Source: a virus
IMG/VR virus record: IMGVR_UViG_3300044858_001304
Location: 1-33,828 of that record
Strand: one strand, 5' to 3'
DNA length: 33,828 bases
Shown piece after piece: positions 2,053-26,470 of the stretch. The notes under the pieces are model-generated. The model did no database searches. It had not been told where the DNA came from and saw only the letters and a list, made by a program, of their open reading frames with translations. Numbering within the stretch: position 1 is the first letter of the stretch; every line of letters begins with the position of its first letter. A program made the position numbers and the translations under genes.

Positions 2053-2813
2053 GCTGATCCACCAACGCCAGCAGTTCCAGACCAACTTGTCAGGGCAACA
2101 CCGTCAAGATATTTACCAGCAGCGCCACCAGCAGTAGGAACAGACCCGCCGCCGAAAGTGTAGTAAGTTCCTTCCTGACCTGCCGTGCCAAGGTCACCAC
2201 CTGATGGGCCTTGGATAGCGGTGTATAAACTCCCGGCCCCTCCTGTTGTAGATGTCCCTGCCGCAGAAGATGCTAGACTTCCATATATCTCACTAGTCAG
2301 TGACGCCGCAGCGCCGACAACCGCGCCAGCACCTCCGCCACCAGAAGCGCCGCCGTAGTCAGAGCCACCAACAGCGTAGCCACCGATAAAACCGCCACCT
2401 CCACCTCCACCAGCCACAACACCATTGTTGGTGACAGTGGTCGTGATTGTGGTTTTGATAGCTGTGCCGCCAGCTTCACCACCGCCATTAGCCGCCCAGT
2501 ATCCACTAGACGCAGATACCCAACGGCAAGCCGTACCATCACCACCCTTACCTTTGATCGTTCCGTTGTTGACAATCGTGATACTAGATCCAACAGGAAA
2601 TGTAGTACCTGAGTCTAATGCTGCCGTGCTAACAGAGGTAGAACCTACAACTACACCACCATCAACTGTTATGGTTGCAATGAGCGGTGAAATCTCATTC
2701 CATCCAGCAGACATAGCAGCCGTCTTGACGTTGTAGTTGTTGGTGTTAACAGAGATAGTCTCGGAAAATCCAAAACTACCTCCAGCACCAAGAAGCATTT
2801 GCTGAATTCCCAT
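2049..2813 (-). CDS. Glycine-rich tail fibre tip / adhesin-like protein (254 aa)
   Basis: The start is placed at ATG 2813, which overlaps the preceding stop as TAATG; an in-frame ATG at 2843 is an alternative. The N-terminal third is beta-rich with Thr/Val strands. The remainder holds several glycine runs (GGGGGGGF, GGASGGGGAGA, AGGAAG) separated by Ala/Ser/Thr and aromatic residues. Such polyglycine segments occur in receptor-recognising tips such as T-even gp38-type adhesins, where glycine-rich loops support variable host-binding loops. It directly follows a tail fibre gene, which fits a fibre-tip or fibre-assembly role. The assignment rests on composition and position, not on a clear family motif. 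Confidence 0.65.
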   Translation of the reverse strand: MGIQQMLLGAGGSFGFSETISVNTNNYNVKTAAMSAGWNEISPLIATITVDGGVVVGSTSVSTAALDSGTTFPVGSSITIVNNGTIKGKGGDGTACRWVSASSGYWAANGGGEAGGTAIKTTITTTVTNNGVVAGGGGGGGFIGGYAVGGSDYGGASGGGGAGAVVGAAASLTSEIYGSLASSAAGTSTTGGAGSLYTAIQGPSGGDLGTAGQEGTYYTFGGGSVPTAGGAAGKYLDGVALTSWSGTAGVGGSA

Positions 2814-3802
2814 TACGTCAGCCCCGAACCGCTGATTACCCAAGTGGTGGTTGCCACTTTAAGGATGGTTGCTGTCCCGTATTGGGCAATTGTTCTGGTT
2901 CCAGTGGTTCCAACACCAGAAAACCTCAAAGTGTCTGATGTGATTGCTATGGTTGAAGACGCAGACGGGTTGTAGAAACTTATTGCAGTTCCAACCGGAA
3001 ACGCTACCGACGAATTTGCTGGTATCGTAAATGCTCCTGCCGTTGCCATGTTGATATGCTTACCAGAATCAGCCAAGACAAGCGTGTAGCTAGCATTTTG
3101 GCTGTTTTGCGGGATACCAGCAGCAGGAGCCAGCGCAGCAATTGCCTGAGCCACCCGCAACGGACTCATGCTTCGTAGTGCAGACTCAGTCCCAGCCTCC
3201 ATTTCTCCTTGAGAGGCAGCGGTCATCTTTGACTGATATCCTGCGGCTGGCATGTAGAACATGCAATACACCGTCGTACCGTCAGCCCAGTAGATTGCCC
3301 TGTCACCAGCAGCAGTCGTGATGTTTGCAGCGCCGGGAAGGTTATTGGTTGTCGCGTTGTGGGTAAGCGTCAGCGCCCCATCGAACACCACCAACCGTAC
3401 TATCCCACTACCGAGCGTGACGCCGGTAATAGTTGTAGTGCCGGTGACATGCACTCCATTTCCTGTTGCCGTAGTCAGGTTGATTGTTGTGTCAGAAGCA
3501 ACATCAGCACCTTTGACCCAGTTCATTGCACCAAGCAGTTGGACTCCTGATGTAGTGAACAACTGCTCGTAGCGTAGAGAATCTCCAGCAGTTGATCCTG
3601 CGGCAAGACCTGTGAACTTGTTTCCTGCCATAGGAAGGTTTGCAGTAACTGTACTTTGTCCGTCTTTTGTTACGCACGTTGACAGCATCGTGGCAACGTC
3701 TGCCGTGAATGCATTGAACACAGAAGCCTCAATCAGCGTGTTGGCTGATACAGGTTGTCCTGCGCTGTTGATGACCGCTACGCCAGAGCCGTTGAAACTC
3801 AT
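2813..3802 (-). CDS. Tail fibre protein (329 aa)
   Basis: Starts at ATG 3802 in an ATGA overlap, behind GAAGGAAAAAACC. The N-terminal 90 residues contain a tail-fibre-type segment (MAGNKFTGLAAGSTAGDSLRY), a pattern repeated in many collar and tail fibre proteins. The middle is Thr-rich beta sequence. The C-terminal 95 residues form a separate domain starting ASYTLVLADSGKHINM and ending TWVISGSGLT, a module I recognise from many phage tail tips. Together with the following glycine-rich gene it probably forms one of the host-contacting appendages. Confidence 0.8.
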   Translation of the reverse strand: MSFNGSGVAVINSAGQPVSANTLIEASVFNAFTADVATMLSTCVTKDGQSTVTANLPMAGNKFTGLAAGSTAGDSLRYEQLFTTSGVQLLGAMNWVKGADVASDTTINLTTATGNGVHVTGTTTITGVTLGSGIVRLVVFDGALTLTHNATTNNLPGAANITTAAGDRAIYWADGTTVYCMFYMPAAGYQSKMTAASQGEMEAGTESALRSMSPLRVAQAIAALAPAAGIPQNSQNASYTLVLADSGKHINMATAGAFTIPANSSVAFPVGTAISFYNPSASSTIAITSDTLRFSGVGTTGTRTIAQYGTATILKVATTTWVISGSGLT

Positions 3803-6480
3803 GGTTTTTTCCTTCCGAGTATTGCTTCTGTAATCCGTGGATCAAACGTCTTTTGTATCGGTAGTTGCGGATCACCTGTAGGATAGACGGGTCCGTAAGC
3901 ATCAGACTTACCACGCATACCACCCAGCTTCGCTCCCGCACCAAACTCCTGCTCAAGCGCCTGAAGCTCCAAAGCAGCAGCAGCCTGCTTCCGCCCATCA
4001 ATCGGGTACTTGTTGTTGATGATCTTCTTCAACTCTTCAGCACGTTGGATAAATGCCTGAGTCGCATCTACCATTGGCCCTTGCTGCCAGAACTCAGTCT
4101 TGTTCATTGTATCAATGGGAGGGCGCTCTGGCGAAGCACGGTTTCGTACAGCCTCTGCCGTGATTTCTTCAAGACTCATCAGCGGAGACTCTTGAGGGAT
4201 AACACGTTCGCCTTTAGCGGCCCTATTCCACATGGAAGGCGTAGGGCCACCACGGGGGGTTCTTTGATTGCGTACCGGAGGAAGGCCAAGTGCGCTGTTA
4301 GGATTAACCATTCCCGGTGCAGTTGGTAGCGCAGCACCTTCATCGGTTATCAAACTACGCAACGCCGCAGCAACCTCTGCTTGCGGAAGCATTGGCGCAG
4401 CAACACCCTCAGACAAAGGCTGTCCCTCATACCCTAGTTTCGTAGGTGCTTCAGGAAGCCCATAATTTGTCAGCCCAGCAGGTTGCTCTTGAACGAAATC
4501 AATCGTCACATTATTAGTACGAACAGGAGGAACCTGCGGCTCTTGTGGGATTCCTCCACGCTCATACAGAGGACGTAAGCGAGGGTCTAATGGAATCTCA
4601 ACAGATGGCGCTGTAGGTGATTGAGGTGTTGTATCGAACTCACCCTGCTTCTTCAACGGGCCTAATACCACATCATTATCAGCTACCCCAAGCAACCCCC
4701 TACCCTGCGGAATTGCTCCCTGCGGAGTCGGAGTAACCAATGGCTCGCCAACCGGAGCAAGCGACAGCGGTTCAGGTCCAATAGGAGTTTTTTCGTACCC
4801 AAGAGCCTGACGAATCGGACGAGCATCAACAGGGATAGCGTTCTTGTTCTGGTACGCTTTCGATGCAATACGGCGAGCTCCAAGGATACTTGCCATCTCG
4901 CCAAGTCCAGCTCCAGCGACAGCGCCACCCAACGTACCCATACCAGGCGCTAGTACAGTTCCAACTCCCATGCCGATAGCAGCAGGAACACCTGACCTAG
5001 CCAGATGCCTCTGAATGGTAGAGAGAGGCCCACCTGAACTGAACGACTCAGGGAACACACCGGCAACCTTTCCAAGGTCAGCAAACGGCCCGGTAAGCGC
5101 ATTGTCCTCTGCGGTAAGTTTCGCCAACTTACCCATGTCGACCTTGCCTGTGTTCTCGTTGAAGATGTCTTCAAGAGTGTAAGTCTTAGCTTGCGTTGCA
5201 CGGTCTTGCTTGTATTGGTCGAGCAGTTTCCCAAGTGCAGGGTTGGCTTCTGCCTGACGTTGCAGGTTCTGGTCGATCAAGCCTTCCAGTTCGCGTGAGA
5301 TGCCTTCACGAACCTTCGCCATAGCCATCTTTTCAGGGCCGAGATCAGTCCCCTTGCGGATATCCCTAGCCTCTTTACGGAGTTGCTCAATGTTCCGAAG
5401 AACATCAGCACCGCTCATCCCGTTTTGGATATCGGTGATAGCTCTATCAATCAGGTTTGACGCTACTTTTTGTGCGGCCTCATCTCCGATAACCCGAGCA
5501 GGCTGAAGCCTAGCAATGGCTTGACTAACAGCGCCATCATCAGTGAATCCACCCATCTGTTGGATAGTTGCGCGTGAGCCACCAGCAGCATCTCTTGCTG
5601 CTTGGATAGACGCAAGAGACAAAGGAGTGTCTGCCGCAATACCGACATCCAACTTCAACGCCTGCTCTGGCCTGCCTACGTTGGCCTTGGTAAGCGCCTC
5701 TGCCTTGTCGTTGGCTTTGACAAAAGACTCTGTAACCTTGTTCTTGACCGAAGGATTGACCTTGCGCGGATCAATCGCAATTCCGTACTGGTTTGCAATC
5801 CTTCCTGCATCAATCATCCCTGCATTGGAAACGCTCTCACGCACTGCCTGAGACTTTAGGTAAGGATCTTGTGCCGTACCAGTTACGTTCGGACGGTTGG
5901 CTGCTTTGTTCAGCCCTGCACGGCCCATCAGGATCGTAGCTATGGCCTCTGGAGCCTTCTCGCCAATCATCTCAGCGCCAAGCTCTGTTCCGGTAAGTTC
6001 AGCGATCCCGCTGTTCCTTCCCATGAACGCGCCAAGTTTCCCAGCGTACTCAATCGGCAGCGCAGCCGCCTTTGACGTTACCTCGCCTTCAGCAGTCCTT
6101 GGCTGATAGGTGTATTTGTCCTGCACGGCACGAACACGCTCGGCGGCTTGATCTACCGTACCGCCACCAAGCAGTTTGTTGATGCCTTCGATGCCGCCGA
6201 CAGCAGATGCCCCCATGCCGGTAAGCATCTGTGTTCCTGCTTCGGCCAGACCATAAGCACCGCGCACAAGCGGGTTGCTGCCCATCTGCTCAAAGCGGCT
6301 AGGCTCATTCACAGGAGGCGGCGCTGGCAATACGGCGGCAGGAGCACCACGCATCACACGGTACTGCCCTGCATCGCTCTTCTGCGCCTTGGAAACAGGA
6401 ACCCACTCGCCTCCAATCATGGCGCGAAACTCTCCAGCATCGTTCTTCTGGACTTTTTCTGCGGATTCCCAATCAGCCAT
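3799..6480 (-). CDS. Large putative internal/ejection virion protein (893 aa)
   Basis: ATG 6480 overlaps the preceding stop as TAATG; an in-frame ATG five codons upstream is less likely. The first 40 residues carry a duplicated motif, VQKNDAGEFRAM then AQKSDAGQYRVM, flanking a GGEWVPV stretch. Residues about 70-110 are Ala/Gly-rich and hydrophobic. A second Gly/Ala-rich segment (AAIGMGVGTVLAPGMGTLGGAVAGAGLG) could insert in a membrane. Between them lies a charged, helical region; the C-terminal third is Pro-rich and low in order. Large helical proteins with membrane-active segments, placed between tail and fibre genes, are typical of podovirus ejection proteins that enter the host envelope with the DNA. 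No lysozyme or protease motif is obvious. Confidence 0.6.
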   Translation of the reverse strand: MADWESAEKVQKNDAGEFRAMIGGEWVPVSKAQKSDAGQYRVMRGAPAAVLPAPPPVNEPSRFEQMGSNPLVRGAYGLAEAGTQMLTGMGASAVGGIEGINKLLGGGTVDQAAERVRAVQDKYTYQPRTAEGEVTSKAAALPIEYAGKLGAFMGRNSGIAELTGTELGAEMIGEKAPEAIATILMGRAGLNKAANRPNVTGTAQDPYLKSQAVRESVSNAGMIDAGRIANQYGIAIDPRKVNPSVKNKVTESFVKANDKAEALTKANVGRPEQALKLDVGIAADTPLSLASIQAARDAAGGSRATIQQMGGFTDDGAVSQAIARLQPARVIGDEAAQKVASNLIDRAITDIQNGMSGADVLRNIEQLRKEARDIRKGTDLGPEKMAMAKVREGISRELEGLIDQNLQRQAEANPALGKLLDQYKQDRATQAKTYTLEDIFNENTGKVDMGKLAKLTAEDNALTGPFADLGKVAGVFPESFSSGGPLSTIQRHLARSGVPAAIGMGVGTVLAPGMGTLGGAVAGAGLGEMASILGARRIASKAYQNKNAIPVDARPIRQALGYEKTPIGPEPLSLAPVGEPLVTPTPQGAIPQGRGLLGVADNDVVLGPLKKQGEFDTTPQSPTAPSVEIPLDPRLRPLYERGGIPQEPQVPPVRTNNVTIDFVQEQPAGLTNYGLPEAPTKLGYEGQPLSEGVAAPMLPQAEVAAALRSLITDEGAALPTAPGMVNPNSALGLPPVRNQRTPRGGPTPSMWNRAAKGERVIPQESPLMSLEEITAEAVRNRASPERPPIDTMNKTEFWQQGPMVDATQAFIQRAEELKKIINNKYPIDGRKQAAAALELQALEQEFGAGAKLGGMRGKSDAYGPVYPTGDPQLPIQKTFDPRITEAILGRKKP

Positions 6481-7754
6481 TACAGGTCTTTCCAATCACC
6501 AGACGCGCCAGTAGCAGATGACTTTGGAGTTCCGTCATCAGAGAAATATGTTCCATCACGGAGCGACTTTGCTTTGCCTTTCGAGAACTCAATCCGCTGC
6601 TTGACTGCCGCTTCTGCACGATCAAATATCTGCTTGCGAACGGCAGGCGACTTACTGGACGAACCTTGAATCTCAAGCAGAACCTTGCGTTCGCCTTCAG
6701 TCGGCATCCCGCCAAATATAGCCTTCAATTGAGGCAGTGCACCGGCAGTCAGGATGTTGTCAAGGTTCTCGGTAGCATCTACCTCAGCAGGCCGGATTCC
6801 TTCAGGGAGTAAAGTTCCTAGCGAAGAAACAACTCCAGCGCCCTTGAATCCCATTGCCTGATCGTTGATGGCTCTTGCTTGTCCAAGCGAAGTAAGCGCA
6901 GCAGCGCCGCCTTGGATTTCTTCGTCAGTCTGGATCAGTTCCTTCTGGGCAGTCGGCGTCATGCCCTTACCTTTACCCTGAATAGGCGCATCACCAATCA
7001 CGCGGCCAGTCCTCGCGTCGACTTTCACTGCCTTACCATCTTTCACAACCTCAGTGACTGTGGGGGCGGGTTCCTGACGCAACGAAGCAGCAAAACCGAT
7101 CATATCCTTACGGTTCTGCCTGTCTCGTTCGCGTTCAATCGCTTCACGTTTCGCCGCTTCTTCAGCGGTGATACGCCTTTCAGCAGCCGCATCCCTGATC
7201 TTTTCCAAGTTCTGCTGATGGATCAAATCAAGCTGGAACAGCTTATCTTCACGCGCAGCAATCTTGTCCTCTTTCCGCGCATCCATCTGGAAATCCATCT
7301 GCCCCATCTTCGACAGACGCGGGTTAGTACTCACAGCCGCTTCGATGATTGCCTGCCTACGCTGATCAGGAGTCGGAGTGAACGCAGGCTTGACGCCCAT
7401 AGCTCCGTCTTCTGTGGGTGGCCCCATAGGCATTTCAGGGCTTCCCATCGTTCCACGCTTGTAGTCTGAAATCGCGGAAGCGTACTCTTGCGCCTTTCTG
7501 TCACTTAACGCCTTGTAGCCCTGCTCCGCACCCTGCGTAGCCTTGCTTGCGTTGTACTGGTGGAACATGTTCGCAAGACCCTGCAACGGCGATGCACCGA
7601 CGTAGGTGTTTCCTACCATTCCACCAGTAAGCGGCACTTGCCCACGCTGCATCATTGCCGCAGCCATCTTCTCCTGATTGGATAGACGCCGCAGTTCAGC
7701 AGCGGTTTCGGGATCAGCATCCCACTCAGTTTGACCGTATTGGTTAGTTGGCAT
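6480..7754 (-). CDS. Putative internal virion / DNA-ejection protein with coiled coil (424 aa)
   Basis: Begins MPTNQYGQTEWDAD at ATG 7754. Residues about 150-225 are highly charged and predicted coiled coil (MDARKEDKIAAREDKLFQ, then RRITAEEAAKREAIERERD). The C-terminal 140 residues form a more conserved-looking domain containing ENLDNILTAGALPQLKAIF and PTEGERKVLLEIQG. This domain and gene order resemble structural proteins next to ejection proteins in podovirus genomes. It lies between the 284-aa and 893-aa genes; the three probably act together inside the capsid or in the tail channel. The role is inferred from context. Confidence 0.6.
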   Translation of the reverse strand: MPTNQYGQTEWDADPETAAELRRLSNQEKMAAAMMQRGQVPLTGGMVGNTYVGASPLQGLANMFHQYNASKATQGAEQGYKALSDRKAQEYASAISDYKRGTMGSPEMPMGPPTEDGAMGVKPAFTPTPDQRRQAIIEAAVSTNPRLSKMGQMDFQMDARKEDKIAAREDKLFQLDLIHQQNLEKIRDAAAERRITAEEAAKREAIERERDRQNRKDMIGFAASLRQEPAPTVTEVVKDGKAVKVDARTGRVIGDAPIQGKGKGMTPTAQKELIQTDEEIQGGAAALTSLGQARAINDQAMGFKGAGVVSSLGTLLPEGIRPAEVDATENLDNILTAGALPQLKAIFGGMPTEGERKVLLEIQGSSSKSPAVRKQIFDRAEAAVKQRIEFSKGKAKSLRDGTYFSDDGTPKSSATGASGDWKDL

Positions 7755-24199: not shown

Positions 24200-24502
24200 A
24201 TGAAATCAAAAACTCTCAACATTGGCATGAATCGCGGCAAAGCTCGCCTGTGGATCGAAGGTAATTGGCTGGCTCAGGCCGGGTTTGCTCGCGGGATGGC
24301 ATACACCGTGGAGGCATTCCCGGACAATGGCGTTATCAGCATCAAGGCCACGCCAGACGGTTCCCGCAAGGTAGCTGGCACTACTTCCCGGCCAATTATG
24401 GACTTGACCAAAGCTGGAGACATGGCAGCTATTGGTGGTGCGGGTTCCGTGGTGCTGCTGGAATGCCGCGCACCGGGATGGATTGTTGTCTCTGAAACTT
24501 GA
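24200..24502 (+). CDS. SymE/AbrB-fold-like early protein (100 aa)
   Basis: First gene of the early operon, ATG 24200 after AGGGGATT. Residues about 14-50 (KARLWIEGNWLAQAGFARG, then a VEAFPDNGVISIKA strand pair) match the pattern of SymE-type and AbrB-like swapped-hairpin domains, in which LxGxWLxxAGFxxG precedes a beta hairpin. SymE in E. coli is an SOS-linked toxin with an AbrB-like fold. The rest is Gly/Ala-rich with strands and ends PGWIVVSET. A role in DNA or RNA binding, or host take-over, is possible. The match is by pattern only. Confidence 0.6.
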   Translation: MKSKTLNIGMNRGKARLWIEGNWLAQAGFARGMAYTVEAFPDNGVISIKATPDGSRKVAGTTSRPIMDLTKAGDMAAIGGAGSVVLLECRAPGWIVVSET

Positions 24503-24515
24503 TAGGGGATAGATC

Positions 24516-24695
24516 ATGGTACTGATTGAAAAATTCGGCAAAGGTTATGAGGCATACGCGCAATTCGATGAGTCAGCGCAGGTATTCGAGATATTCACTG
24601 ACACGGAAGGGGAAGGGTATATAGGATGCGCTGACACAATGGTTGAATGCTTGCAGGTGGCGAGGGAATGGTACGCTGAAGCCACTAACTACTAG
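24516..24695 (+). CDS. Small hypothetical early protein (59 aa)
   Basis: ATG 24516 follows GATAGGGGATAGATC and encodes MVLIEKFGKGYEAYAQFDE to EWYAEATNY, ending in TAG. It is acidic and predicted to fold as strands followed by a C-terminal helix (MVECLQVAREWYAEA). Spacing of 13 nt from the SymE-like gene and a good ribosome site support it. No family is recognised. Confidence 0.7.
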   Translation: MVLIEKFGKGYEAYAQFDESAQVFEIFTDTEGEGYIGCADTMVECLQVAREWYAEATNY

Positions 24696-24705
24696 CTGCT
24701 AGCGG

Positions 24706-24733
24706 GTAGCCTTGCCGGGTTCCGGTAGGCTAC
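24706..24733 (+). other. Hairpin between early genes
   Basis: GTAGCCT and AGGCTAC form a perfect 7-bp outer stem, with CCGG/CCGG inside, in the 79-nt gap before the GP88-like gene. No T-run follows, so it is more likely an mRNA structure or processing site than a terminator. Confidence 0.4.
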
Positions 24734-24774
24734 ACGGTATCACCTAGACCATAACTCTATAAGGATAGCTTCCC

Positions 24775-25446
24775 ATGTCTAATCCAGTTACTTTCTATCG
24801 CAGCAAAAAAGACGCCGCTGCCGCCTGCGGCAACATGTCGCAAACTTCTAAAATGGGATGCCAGAGCTTTGGCTTGCCAATTGCCGCATGTAATGTCGGC
24901 TCGAAGCTTCGCAACATTCCCGGTTCAACGTGCTCCAAATGTTATGCCGGCAAAGGGGCATATGCTCAGTATGCGTACACCGTGTTGCCTGCGCAGGAAA
25001 ACAGGCTGGCTCTGTTGCGGGATGCCCTATCCGATACCGGCAAGGCATGGGCATGGGCATATGCCATCGTTCGAATGATTGGCAAGGATACGCACTTCCG
25101 GTGGCATGATGCGGGAGACTTGCAAAGCTTGCCGCATCTCGAGTTGATCGCTCAGGTAGCTGTCGAGCTTCCGGCGGTAAAGTTCTGGCTCCCGACAAGG
25201 GAAAAGGCTGTCGTGTTGGCATACCTGCGGAAGCACGGAAGCTTCCCAGCCAACTTAGTGGTGCGAGTATCTGCCACTATGATCGATAGTGCGCCGCCTG
25301 CCATTGCCGGTACATGCGGATCGGCGGTCTACTCTGATAAGCCCATTGGCTTGGCTTGCATCTCCCCGCAACAGAATGGAGAATGCCGGGCTTGCCGGGC
25401 TTGTTGGTCGGCTGCCGTTCCGGTGGTTTCCTATCATGTCCATTAA
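24775..25446 (+). CDS. GP88-family phage protein (223 aa)
   Basis: Starts MSNPVTFYRSKKDA at ATG 24775. It carries motifs of the gene product 88 family known from mycobacteriophages and other phages: TCSKCYAGKG near 52-61, FRWHDAGDL at 108-116, FWLPTR at 137-142, and a C-terminal cysteine cluster with C195, C204, C207 and C210 (ECRACRACW). The conserved cysteines suggest metal or iron-sulfur binding. The biochemical role of GP88 proteins is not established to my knowledge. It lies in an early operon with other small unknown genes and overlaps the next start by 11 nt. Confidence 0.85.
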   Translation: MSNPVTFYRSKKDAAAACGNMSQTSKMGCQSFGLPIAACNVGSKLRNIPGSTCSKCYAGKGAYAQYAYTVLPAQENRLALLRDALSDTGKAWAWAYAIVRMIGKDTHFRWHDAGDLQSLPHLELIAQVAVELPAVKFWLPTREKAVVLAYLRKHGSFPANLVVRVSATMIDSAPPAIAGTCGSAVYSDKPIGLACISPQQNGECRACRACWSAAVPVVSYHVH

Positions 25447-25558
25447 CCAATTGATGGCAATCGCTACCGCCGAACGGCGGTTTAATCTCGGCCTGATCTC
25501 TGACTGGGAATACTACCGGGCCGTTGTTGAGTCTTACTTTATAGGGGCGCAAACATGA
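25436..25558 (+). CDS. Small hypothetical protein (40 aa)
   Basis: ATG 25436 lies inside the end of the GP88 gene and opens MSINQLMAIATAERRFNLG to FIGAQT, ending ATGA with the next gene. A longer frame upstream is inside GP88 and is not used. The protein is helical (ISDWEYYRAVVESYF). Overlap on both sides supports a translated small gene; function unknown. Confidence 0.5.
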   Translation: MSINQLMAIATAERRFNLGLISDWEYYRAVVESYFIGAQT

Positions 25559-25764
25559 AGCCGAAAAACCGCTATTCCGGCCTATCTGTCGCTCAATTGC
25601 GATACATCATCGATGATTCTGGGGCTGCTATGCGTCTTCACCAAAACAGCGGGAACCGCGCTCCTGAGTCCGGGCAATTGTGCGAAAGCAAATACGCTGA
25701 TCAGGTTAACGATGCCTGTTCGGAATTGTATCGGCGAAGTCTCAAAACATTGAAAGGGGAATAA
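25555..25764 (+). CDS. Small hypothetical protein (69 aa)
   Basis: ATG 25555 overlaps the previous stop as ATGA, behind TATAGGGGC. The sequence MKPKNRYSGLSVAQLRYII to RRSLKTLKGE is basic and helical, with a conserved-looking SVAQLRYIIDDSGAAMR block that I associate with small phage early proteins. No enzyme motif is seen. Probably an early regulator or host-interacting protein, but function cannot be assigned. Confidence 0.7.
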   Translation: MKPKNRYSGLSVAQLRYIIDDSGAAMRLHQNSGNRAPESGQLCESKYADQVNDACSELYRRSLKTLKGE

Positions 25765-25766
25765 TC

Positions 25767-26306
25767 ATGTTAACCATAGAATCCGGCCTGCAAAAGGCCG
25801 TTAGTAGGGGCTTGCTGAAATGGGCGGCTGGCCGTGCTATGTTCTGTCCCCATTGCGATACCGTTGCCGATTATCGCCGCTATGTGCTAGTGCATCGTGG
25901 CGACAATTCCCTTGCATGGGAAGGTTGCGCGGCCTGCTATGACAGGCTTGGCCTTGATCCGGTGCCCGATACATGGGAAGTTATCCGCGAAGCCGCCAGC
26001 AAGCCTCGCAAGCCGCCTGCATTGCCGCTCACGTCTACCATCCGCGACAAAAACGGCAAGCCGCAAGATATAGCTTGCTGCCGCGCATTCGATATGTACG
26101 GCCATACCTTTGTCGCGCATCCTAGCCTGGTTAATCCTGCCATGTGGGTGATAACGCATACCGGCACTGGAGCTGCGGCATGTGTCCCGCAAAAGTCTAA
26201 AGCCGCCGCTATCCGCATAGGAATGGCTAACCTTGATCGTGTTGGTCTTGACGGGTTCACTACGGCGCTGGCCTATGCCATGCAATCTATCTCTAAGGGG
26301 AAATAA
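25767..26306 (+). CDS. Zinc-ribbon hypothetical protein (179 aa)
   Basis: Starts at ATG 25767 two nt after the previous stop, with AAAGGGG upstream. A possible zinc ribbon is formed by CPHC near residue 27 and CAAC near residue 54. Residues 70-100 are Pro/Arg-rich. The C-terminal half holds a domain with YGHTFVAHPSLVNPAMWVIT, probably strand-rich and DNA- or ligand-binding. It is the largest gene in this part of the operon besides GP88. No family is recognised; zinc binding is inferred from cysteine spacing. Confidence 0.65.
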   Translation: MLTIESGLQKAVSRGLLKWAAGRAMFCPHCDTVADYRRYVLVHRGDNSLAWEGCAACYDRLGLDPVPDTWEVIREAASKPRKPPALPLTSTIRDKNGKPQDIACCRAFDMYGHTFVAHPSLVNPAMWVITHTGTGAAACVPQKSKAAAIRIGMANLDRVGLDGFTTALAYAMQSISKGK

Positions 26307-26308
26307 AC

Positions 26309-26470
26309 ATGCATACCATCCATCCGAAAGCCGCAGCCGCAGCCACCGCTGCCCGTAACTGGAAACGCTGGGGCGCATACGCTTCCTATCGCTACGCTGA
26401 AAAACGGGGCGCATTGCCCTATCTGACCATTGCGCGGGTTCTTGCCTGCGCGGAAAGGGCCGGGGTTTAA
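26309..26470 (+). CDS. Small basic hypothetical protein (53 aa)
   Basis: ATG 26309 two nt after the previous stop, behind AAGGGGAAATAAAC. It encodes MHTIHPKAAAAATAARNW followed by basic aromatic sequence (YASYRYAEKRGALPYL) and ends ACAERAGV. It is Ala-rich, basic and helical. Genes of similar size with basic aromatic sequence occur in phage early operons. Function unknown. Confidence 0.6.
   Translation: MHTIHPKAAAAATAARNWKRWGAYASYRYAEKRGALPYLTIARVLACAERAGV

Follow-up and report, generated by a model that had tools for sequence, protein, structure and literature searches.

The GP88-family gene in the viral DNA analysed here (the window, i.e., a linear IMG/VR virus record, 33,828 bases long) is likely to encode a compact radical-SAM enzyme, for which an iron-sulfur cluster and cleavage of S-adenosylmethionine (SAM) are predicted. 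This assignment rests on predicted folds and on a bridge via DUF5131 (PF07505, phage Gp37/Gp68); the profile steps from GP88 to DUF5131 and from there to radical-SAM proteins are each significant. Within the known GP88 family, the gene belongs to a subfamily which combines (i) an N-terminal C-x13-C-x2-C motif with (ii) a second site of four cysteines. Many phages (marine, soil and mycobacterial) encode a GP88 protein, for which the libraries searched list no chemistry; should GP88 indeed belong to the radical-SAM superfamily, its chemistry would be directly assayable (SAM cleavage, EPR). The subfamily would then stand for a radical-SAM enzyme of very small size, whose cluster motif is unusual and whose core houses a second metal site.

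The gene (24775-25446, plus strand) is intact from ATG to TAA and encodes a protein of 223 amino acids (P0001), assigned by PF17338 and analysed as a predicted structure; its ribosome-binding site region (24754..24774, plus strand) contains AAGGA about 9 bases upstream of the ATG. It is the third of six ORFs (starts at 24200, 24516, 24775, 25555, 25767 and 26309) in a plus-strand cassette (24200-26470) located between the minus-strand genes for terminase and primase. The first ORF (24200..24502, 100 aa) displays a weak SymE-like match (E 2.7e-4; 21.4 bits, below the cut-off of 29). No family could be assigned to the small ORFs of 59 (24516..24695), 69 (25555..25764) and 53 aa (26309..26470, the last of the cassette) or to a 179-aa ORF with a CPHC...CAAC pair (25767..26306), all on the plus strand. 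A possible further plus-strand ORF of 40 aa (25436..25558) runs across the stop codon of GP88 and into the start of the following ORF. As the preliminary description had remarked, these small neighbours are unusual, in that they gave almost no matches. The 179-aa ORF has a single weak relative (L111, E 9e-6) and no confirmed relative in viral_contigs, so that the other cassette ORFs were rejected as a conserved module. All six ORFs possess a purine-rich ribosome-binding site shortly upstream of their ATG (five times AGGGG, AAGGA at 24775), and together with the common orientation this would fit an operon, the early timing of which, as presumed beforehand, is a supposition. Consensus searches around the cassette yielded no excess of promoters (4 vs 4.6 in shuffled sequences) and 6 terminators vs 3.4 in shuffled sequences. 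Elsewhere, the minus strand of the window encodes portal, major head protein, terminase large subunit and primase/helicase, and the plus strand on the right side carries genes similar to those for exonuclease VIII and RecT. Megablast of the 14-31 kb region against phages gave no match.

P0001 matches the Pfam family GP88 (PF17338) over residues 50-170 with 66.4 bits (E 4.4e-18; gathering cut-off 24.4 bits) and phrog_1392 of unknown function with E 3e-13. PF07505 (gathering cut-off 28.9 bits) does not match P0001 at E <= 1 and, among the 95 subfamily members, gives weak matches to 10 (E 0.002 at best). P0001 has no NCBIfam match, and no QueE model is among the NCBIfam models matching the 95 members. 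Sequence searches of the PDB retrieved nothing credible, the best E-values being 0.96 for P0001 and 0.031 for the 95-sequence profile. In the open-access literature searched, which lacks most subscription papers, no paper turned up under "GP88 family protein" or PF17338, in agreement with the earlier statement that the role of this protein is undescribed.

Relatives of P0001 occur in 17 of 50,697 phage records, all with less than 40 % identity and including phages of Roseobacter, Pelagibacter, Caulobacter and Acinetobacter. In viral_contigs, at least 600 stretches match the search patterns, and 595 of the 600 listed encode a relative, the best 80 of which were kept; further relatives are present at 30 loci in one-per-species genomes, and none was found among 72,556 plasmids. 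The resulting alignment comprises P0001 and 119 relatives (120 sequences), 118 of which reach the N-terminal cysteine region. The viral and genomic relatives were fetched with HDAGD and WLPTR among the patterns, such that conservation of these two motifs is biased there; the cysteines were not used as patterns in either search. One GP88-like sequence forms the C-terminal part of a 445-aa protein of the Tunturiibacter phage Tunturi_5 (gp272, L288:1925-3262) annotated as "minor head protein", which probably is a misannotation.

The motifs SKCYA (residues 54-58), HDAGD (111-115), WLPTR (138-142) and C-x2-C-x2-C, described as intact beforehand, are all present in P0001, and their cysteines are near-invariant among the 120 sequences. 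Overlooked at that time were Cys39 and Cys195, which extend the set to a C-x13-C-x2-C motif and a four-cysteine site, respectively. The former (C39-x13-C53-x2-C56 followed by Tyr57; 24889..24945, plus strand) succeeds strand 1 of the predicted structure and is proposed to be the radical-SAM [4Fe-4S] site. Among the 118 sequences reaching this region, Cys39 is conserved in 116, Cys53 and Cys56 in all, and Tyr57 directly behind the third cysteine in 117; the spacing is kept in 115 of 116. Via DUF5131 and its relation to PA0069-type radical-SAM proteins, Cys39, Cys53 and Cys56 are the presumptive cluster cysteines. The three cysteines thus appear in a variant spacing, the canonical CX3CX2C being absent from P0001. 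The long first spacer nevertheless seems acceptable, because QueE provides a precedent with its CX14CX2C motif and beta6/alpha3 core, as described in PMC4389238.

Three further motifs were located. HDAGD (25105..25119, plus strand) occupies the loop after strand 2 (residues 107-110) and by eye matches SMSD of DUF5131. WLPTR (25186..25200, plus strand) lies in strand 3 (136-141), where the alignment pairs it with LTKR of DUF5131, and R164-V-S166 (25264..25272, plus strand) closes strand 4 (161-166), opposite the GVSVE segment of DUF5131 in the alignment. The position of HDAGD is presumably that of the SAM amino-group-binding motif of radical-SAM proteins. In relatives this motif mostly reads HDSGD or FDSGD, with Ser (105/120) or Ala (15/120) at the fourth-from-last position. 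Arg109, Asp112, Gly114 and Asp115, which are inside the motif used for fetching, as well as Asn160, Arg164 and Ser166 are each invariant (120/120).

The C-terminal four-cysteine site (C195-x8-C204-x2-C207-x2-C210; 25357..25404, plus strand), located between strands 5 and 6, is proposed as a second metal site and more likely accommodates an auxiliary Fe-S cluster than zinc. Cys195, Cys207 and Cys210 are present in 120/120 sequences and Cys204 in 119/120, with the spacing kept in 111/119. The GP88 proteins of two loci (L004 and L008) contain about 24 extra residues and C-x32-C between the first two C-terminal cysteines (2/119) with the cysteines retained. The last residue, His223 (25441..25443, plus strand), is nearly invariant (119/120). 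Beyond the seven cysteines, the next best Cys columns reach 51/120 and 37/120.

The connection of GP88 to DUF5131 emerged from a search with the 95-sequence subfamily profile over 5,168 ORFs, in which DUF5131 proteins occupy all of the 30 best non-GP88 places; 120 of these ORFs are DUF5131 by motif (regex), many loci having been fetched with DUF5131 patterns only, and since many of the 120 are mutually related, the 30 places cannot be counted as independent. Matches with E < 1 comprise 40 DUF5131 proteins by regex and one more in a DUF5131 locus. Conversely, the Pfam GP88 model scores five DUF5131 proteins (L237, L238, L242, L246, L249) above and three (L239, L240, L254) below its cut-off; these eight were preselected by genome matches to the same model (one such match, L251, was left out of extraction), and the five of eight therefore do not represent a rate; the profile search over the 5,168 ORFs is independent of this preselection. 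Alignment of the subfamily to DUF5131 by hhalign resulted in E-values of 1.5e-5 (35 sequences), 2e-4 (19) and 9e-4 (90), compared with 0.48 for the TIM-barrel control IGPS, all being uncalibrated values of single pairs. The alignments pair WLPTRE of GP88 with LTKR of DUF5131 and P-x-NL-x-VRxSA with P-x-NVW-x-GVSVE, and in both families the Cys motif comes first, followed by (S/G)D, T(K/R) and P-x-N...S. At the sequence level, the bridge appears clearest for the subfamily found in the window, because canonical GP88 against the viral DUF5131 set reaches just 0.027 (control against IGPS, 0.046). An actinobacterial DUF5131 subfamily (L242, L244, L245, L250, L253 and the viral L369-L371) was observed to contain LLTKRP segments close to those of GP88 and a C-terminal CxxCxxC motif, which hhalign pairs with Cys195-Cys210 of GP88 (E 0.002, 21 columns). 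A contig of Microvirga lupini (L104) carries a GP88 gene (6001-6672) and, at a distance of about 3 kb, a DUF5131 gene (~2277-3218). Direct hhalign alignments of GP88 with radical-SAM sets are not significant (mixed set, 0.44; QueE with CX3CX2C, 0.15; PA0069, 0.055), hence the reliance of the assignment on the DUF5131 bridge.

Several lines of evidence indicate that DUF5131 is a radical-SAM protein resembling spore photoproduct lyase. DUF5131 matches the NCBIfam model "radical SAM mobile pair protein A" (TIGR04471) with E 3e-27, a score below the curated cut-off, and aligns with PA0069-type radical-SAM proteins over ~154-155 columns (hhalign E 7e-4 and 8e-5). In the printed alignment, the last two motif cysteines at the GC-x2-CYA end of DUF5131 fall on those of the PA0069 CX3CX2C motif. 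The cysteine spacing of DUF5131 is C-x6-C-x2-C in 89/90 sequences, and a Tyr succeeds the third cysteine in 90/90, the latter count being biased by the collecting regex. A predicted DUF5131 structure (L289:3019-3768; pLDDT 91.9) best matches spore photoproduct lyase (Z 14.1-14.3, 194-196 residues, 2.9 A), followed by viperin (11.9) and by SuiB, lysine aminomutase and RlmN (Z 11-12); Foldseek likewise ranks spore photoproduct lyase first (E 1.5e-3). One DUF5131 protein (L254:1240-3210, minus strand) contains an intein that immediately precedes the third cysteine of the motif and matches the model of the intein-containing Rv2578c-type radical-SAM protein. PADLOC lists DUF5131 (PDC-M41B/M30B) together with TcmP (PDC-M41A/M30A) as phage-defence candidates, and the lyase-like nature of DUF5131 suggests possible action of this pair on nucleic acid. 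The open-access literature searched yielded no paper under "DUF5131" or "radical SAM mobile pair", and TcmP is named merely as an annotation in the relevant parts of PMC12445080 and PMC12429752.

The predicted structure of P0001 (from 95 sequences; pLDDT 94.0, pTM 0.90) contains six strands in the order 29-32, 107-110, 136-141 (WLPT), 161-166, 181-186 and 217-221. Long helices follow strands 1-3 only (58-65/70-85/88-102 after the Cys motif, 119-131 after HDAGD, 144-154), corresponding to a beta6/alpha3 layout, and the four-Cys segment is inserted between strands 181-186 and 217-221. In VIA-align, a re-alignment of the best 1000 Foldseek hits in which absence excludes nothing, the best row is QueE of B. 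subtilis (5tgs; Z 5.9, 138 aligned residues, 3.9 A), followed by TYW1 (5.8), two viperin-like proteins (5.3 each), QueE 5th5 (5.0) and another viperin-like protein (4.9). Thus, the top six rows are all radical-SAM proteins with Z 4.9-5.9, and Z 5-6 is a range where proteins may share just a common arrangement. Spore photoproduct lyase is not among the top 50 rows, and Foldseek of the model against the PDB returned no match at E <= 0.001. The model fold, taken alone, is suggestive only as evidence for a radical-SAM protein. In sum, the earlier proposal of an active metal or iron-sulfur enzyme gains support by inference from the cysteine sites, the model topology and the homology through DUF5131 to radical-SAM proteins; the activity and the metal themselves are predictions.

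In the proposed mechanism, Cys39, Cys53 and Cys56 would hold a [4Fe-4S] cluster, the free iron of which would bind SAM. An electron would then cleave SAM to generate the 5'-deoxyadenosyl radical, and this radical would abstract a hydrogen of the substrate within the barrel. HDAGD and Arg164/Ser166 appear to be placed where radical-SAM proteins bind SAM, and Cys195, Cys204, Cys207 and Cys210 may provide the second metal site, which lies between strands 5 and 6 and would probably be an auxiliary Fe-S cluster. As a tentative guess by analogy, the substrate could possibly be a nucleic-acid base or a nucleotide, because the nearest relatives of GP88, the DUF5131 proteins, have their best predicted fold match in spore photoproduct lyase, which acts on DNA bases, and because GP88 proteins are basic (median pI 9.36 for the 120 sequences vs 8.23 for 501 neighbouring ORFs); beyond relatives and pI, nothing ties GP88 to DNA. 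Going further, one may speculate that GP88 is a miniature, phage-encoded member of the spore-photoproduct-lyase line that accommodates two Fe-S clusters in ~220 residues, which repairs or alters DNA bases of phage or host, e.g., by undoing photodamage in packaged DNA or by escaping host restriction, and which shares its ancestry with the radical-SAM half of the candidate defence pair PDC-M41/M30. This extended scenario is regarded as rather improbable.

The genes adjoining GP88 were inspected in 119 of 123 listed ORFs; four were dropped by hand (L078, similar to L071; L097:6683; L104:5545 with a run of N; L113:4413), 17 locus ids are missing from the list (loci that are near-duplicate, truncated or from named phages, plus L005), and the neighbours in the window are not included. 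Most of the adjacent genes are orphans. Only 6 Pfam families were found in all, i.e., the N-terminal domain of ArdC (4 ORFs, thus an ArdC-like anti-restriction protein in 4/119), a zincin-like peptidase domain (4), an IrrE-like peptidase (2), and DUF932, Phage_L5_gp82 and a beta-clamp domain (1 each); PHROGs assigned 27 families, most of them without function. These families are too few for functional inference. ORF calls around the loci are crude with many antisense shadow ORFs, and the groups named by eye near GP88 (C5-methyltransferase-like, 17 loci; terminase, 26; VRR-NUC-like, 17) may reflect shared phage lineages. At one locus (L107), GP88 resides among genes resembling, by eye, those for a relaxase, a TraG-type ATPase and tyrosine integrases, suggesting that conjugative elements are carriers as well.

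Alternatively, a radical-SAM enzyme encoded by the GP88 gene could plausibly, at somewhat less than even odds, use a metabolite, peptide or cofactor as its substrate instead of nucleic acid, comparable to QueE, SuiB or NifB; the four-Cys site would then take part in electron transfer or in binding of the substrate. The best direct fold matches of GP88 are QueE, TYW1 and viperin-like enzymes, and the small-molecule substrates of QueE and viperin favour this reading; moreover, peptide-modifying radical-SAM enzymes commonly carry auxiliary cysteine sites. However, no queuosine, peptide or cofactor family is present among the 119 adjacent ORFs as judged from Pfam and the first 25 of the 27 PHROGs families.

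Activity itself would be lacking if GP88 were a dead radical-SAM relative, i.e., a zinc- or cluster-binding protein that works through binding, either to DNA or, as an inhibitor or decoy, in relation to a defence protein of the DUF5131 type. The seven cysteines and the histidine would suffice for two zinc ions, the spacing of the cluster motif is abnormal, and a phage might mimic the PADLOC defence candidates DUF5131/TcmP (PDC-M41/M30). Contrasting this, the invariance of Arg109, Asp112, Gly114, Asp115, Asn160, Arg164 and Ser166 in 120/120 sequences is as expected of an active site, and CxxCxxC is typical of Fe-S rather than zinc sites; a dead relative is considered unlikely. Least probable is an unrelated metal enzyme on a TIM-barrel-like fold with a convergent resemblance to DUF5131, a view compatible with the low Z-scores (5.9 at most, and 4.9 already for chitinase-like and other barrels) and the lack of Foldseek E-values below 0.001, but at odds with the 30 best non-GP88 places all going to DUF5131 and with the common motif order.

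The presumed radical-SAM enzyme was compared with known systems. Viperin and viperin-like enzymes are related by fold matches (Z 5.3 to GP88, 11.9 to DUF5131), and no sequence match between viperin and GP88 was found. QueE proteins of the CX14CX2C type share with GP88 the minimal beta6/alpha3 core and the long first Cys spacer; among 30 QueE relatives, 12 contain CX14CX2C and 18 CX3CX2C. QueE and GP88 do not match by sequence (hhalign E 0.15-0.77), and we know of no second four-Cys site in QueE.

Spore photoproduct lyase and PA0069-type proteins differ from the much shorter GP88 by their canonical CX3CX2C motif. The lyase additionally needs a fourth, catalytic cysteine (Cys140/141), whereas no equally conserved lone cysteine exists in the 120 GP88 sequences. 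For the B. subtilis lyase, PMC3742179 places Tyr99 adjacent to the third of the cysteines Cys91, Cys95 and Cys98 (Tyr98/99) and suggests a role of this Tyr in radical transfer. Tyr57 of the GP88 subfamily occupies the same place, which is an analogy, and canonical GP88 lacks it.

DUF5131 resembles GP88 in CYA at the third cysteine and in the (S/G)D, T(K/R) and P-x-N...S segments, and differs from the subfamily by its C-x6-C-x2-C spacing, greater length and extra strands. DUF5131 sometimes adjoins TcmP (e.g., at L249). TcmP (TIGR04474) was found in 0/44 GP88-bearing records (including that of the window; many are fragments) and was rejected as an obligatory partner; since P0001 also has no PADLOC match, GP88 probably works without TcmP. 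Canonical GP88 of mycobacteriophages and pelagiphages agrees with P0001 in Pfam family, motif order and the presence of three N-terminal cysteines. However, the five canonical proteins inspected (L235, L285, L286, L287, L288) display C-x6-C-x3-C without a Tyr after the third cysteine and are devoid of the C-terminal four-Cys site, which the subfamily of P0001 possesses.
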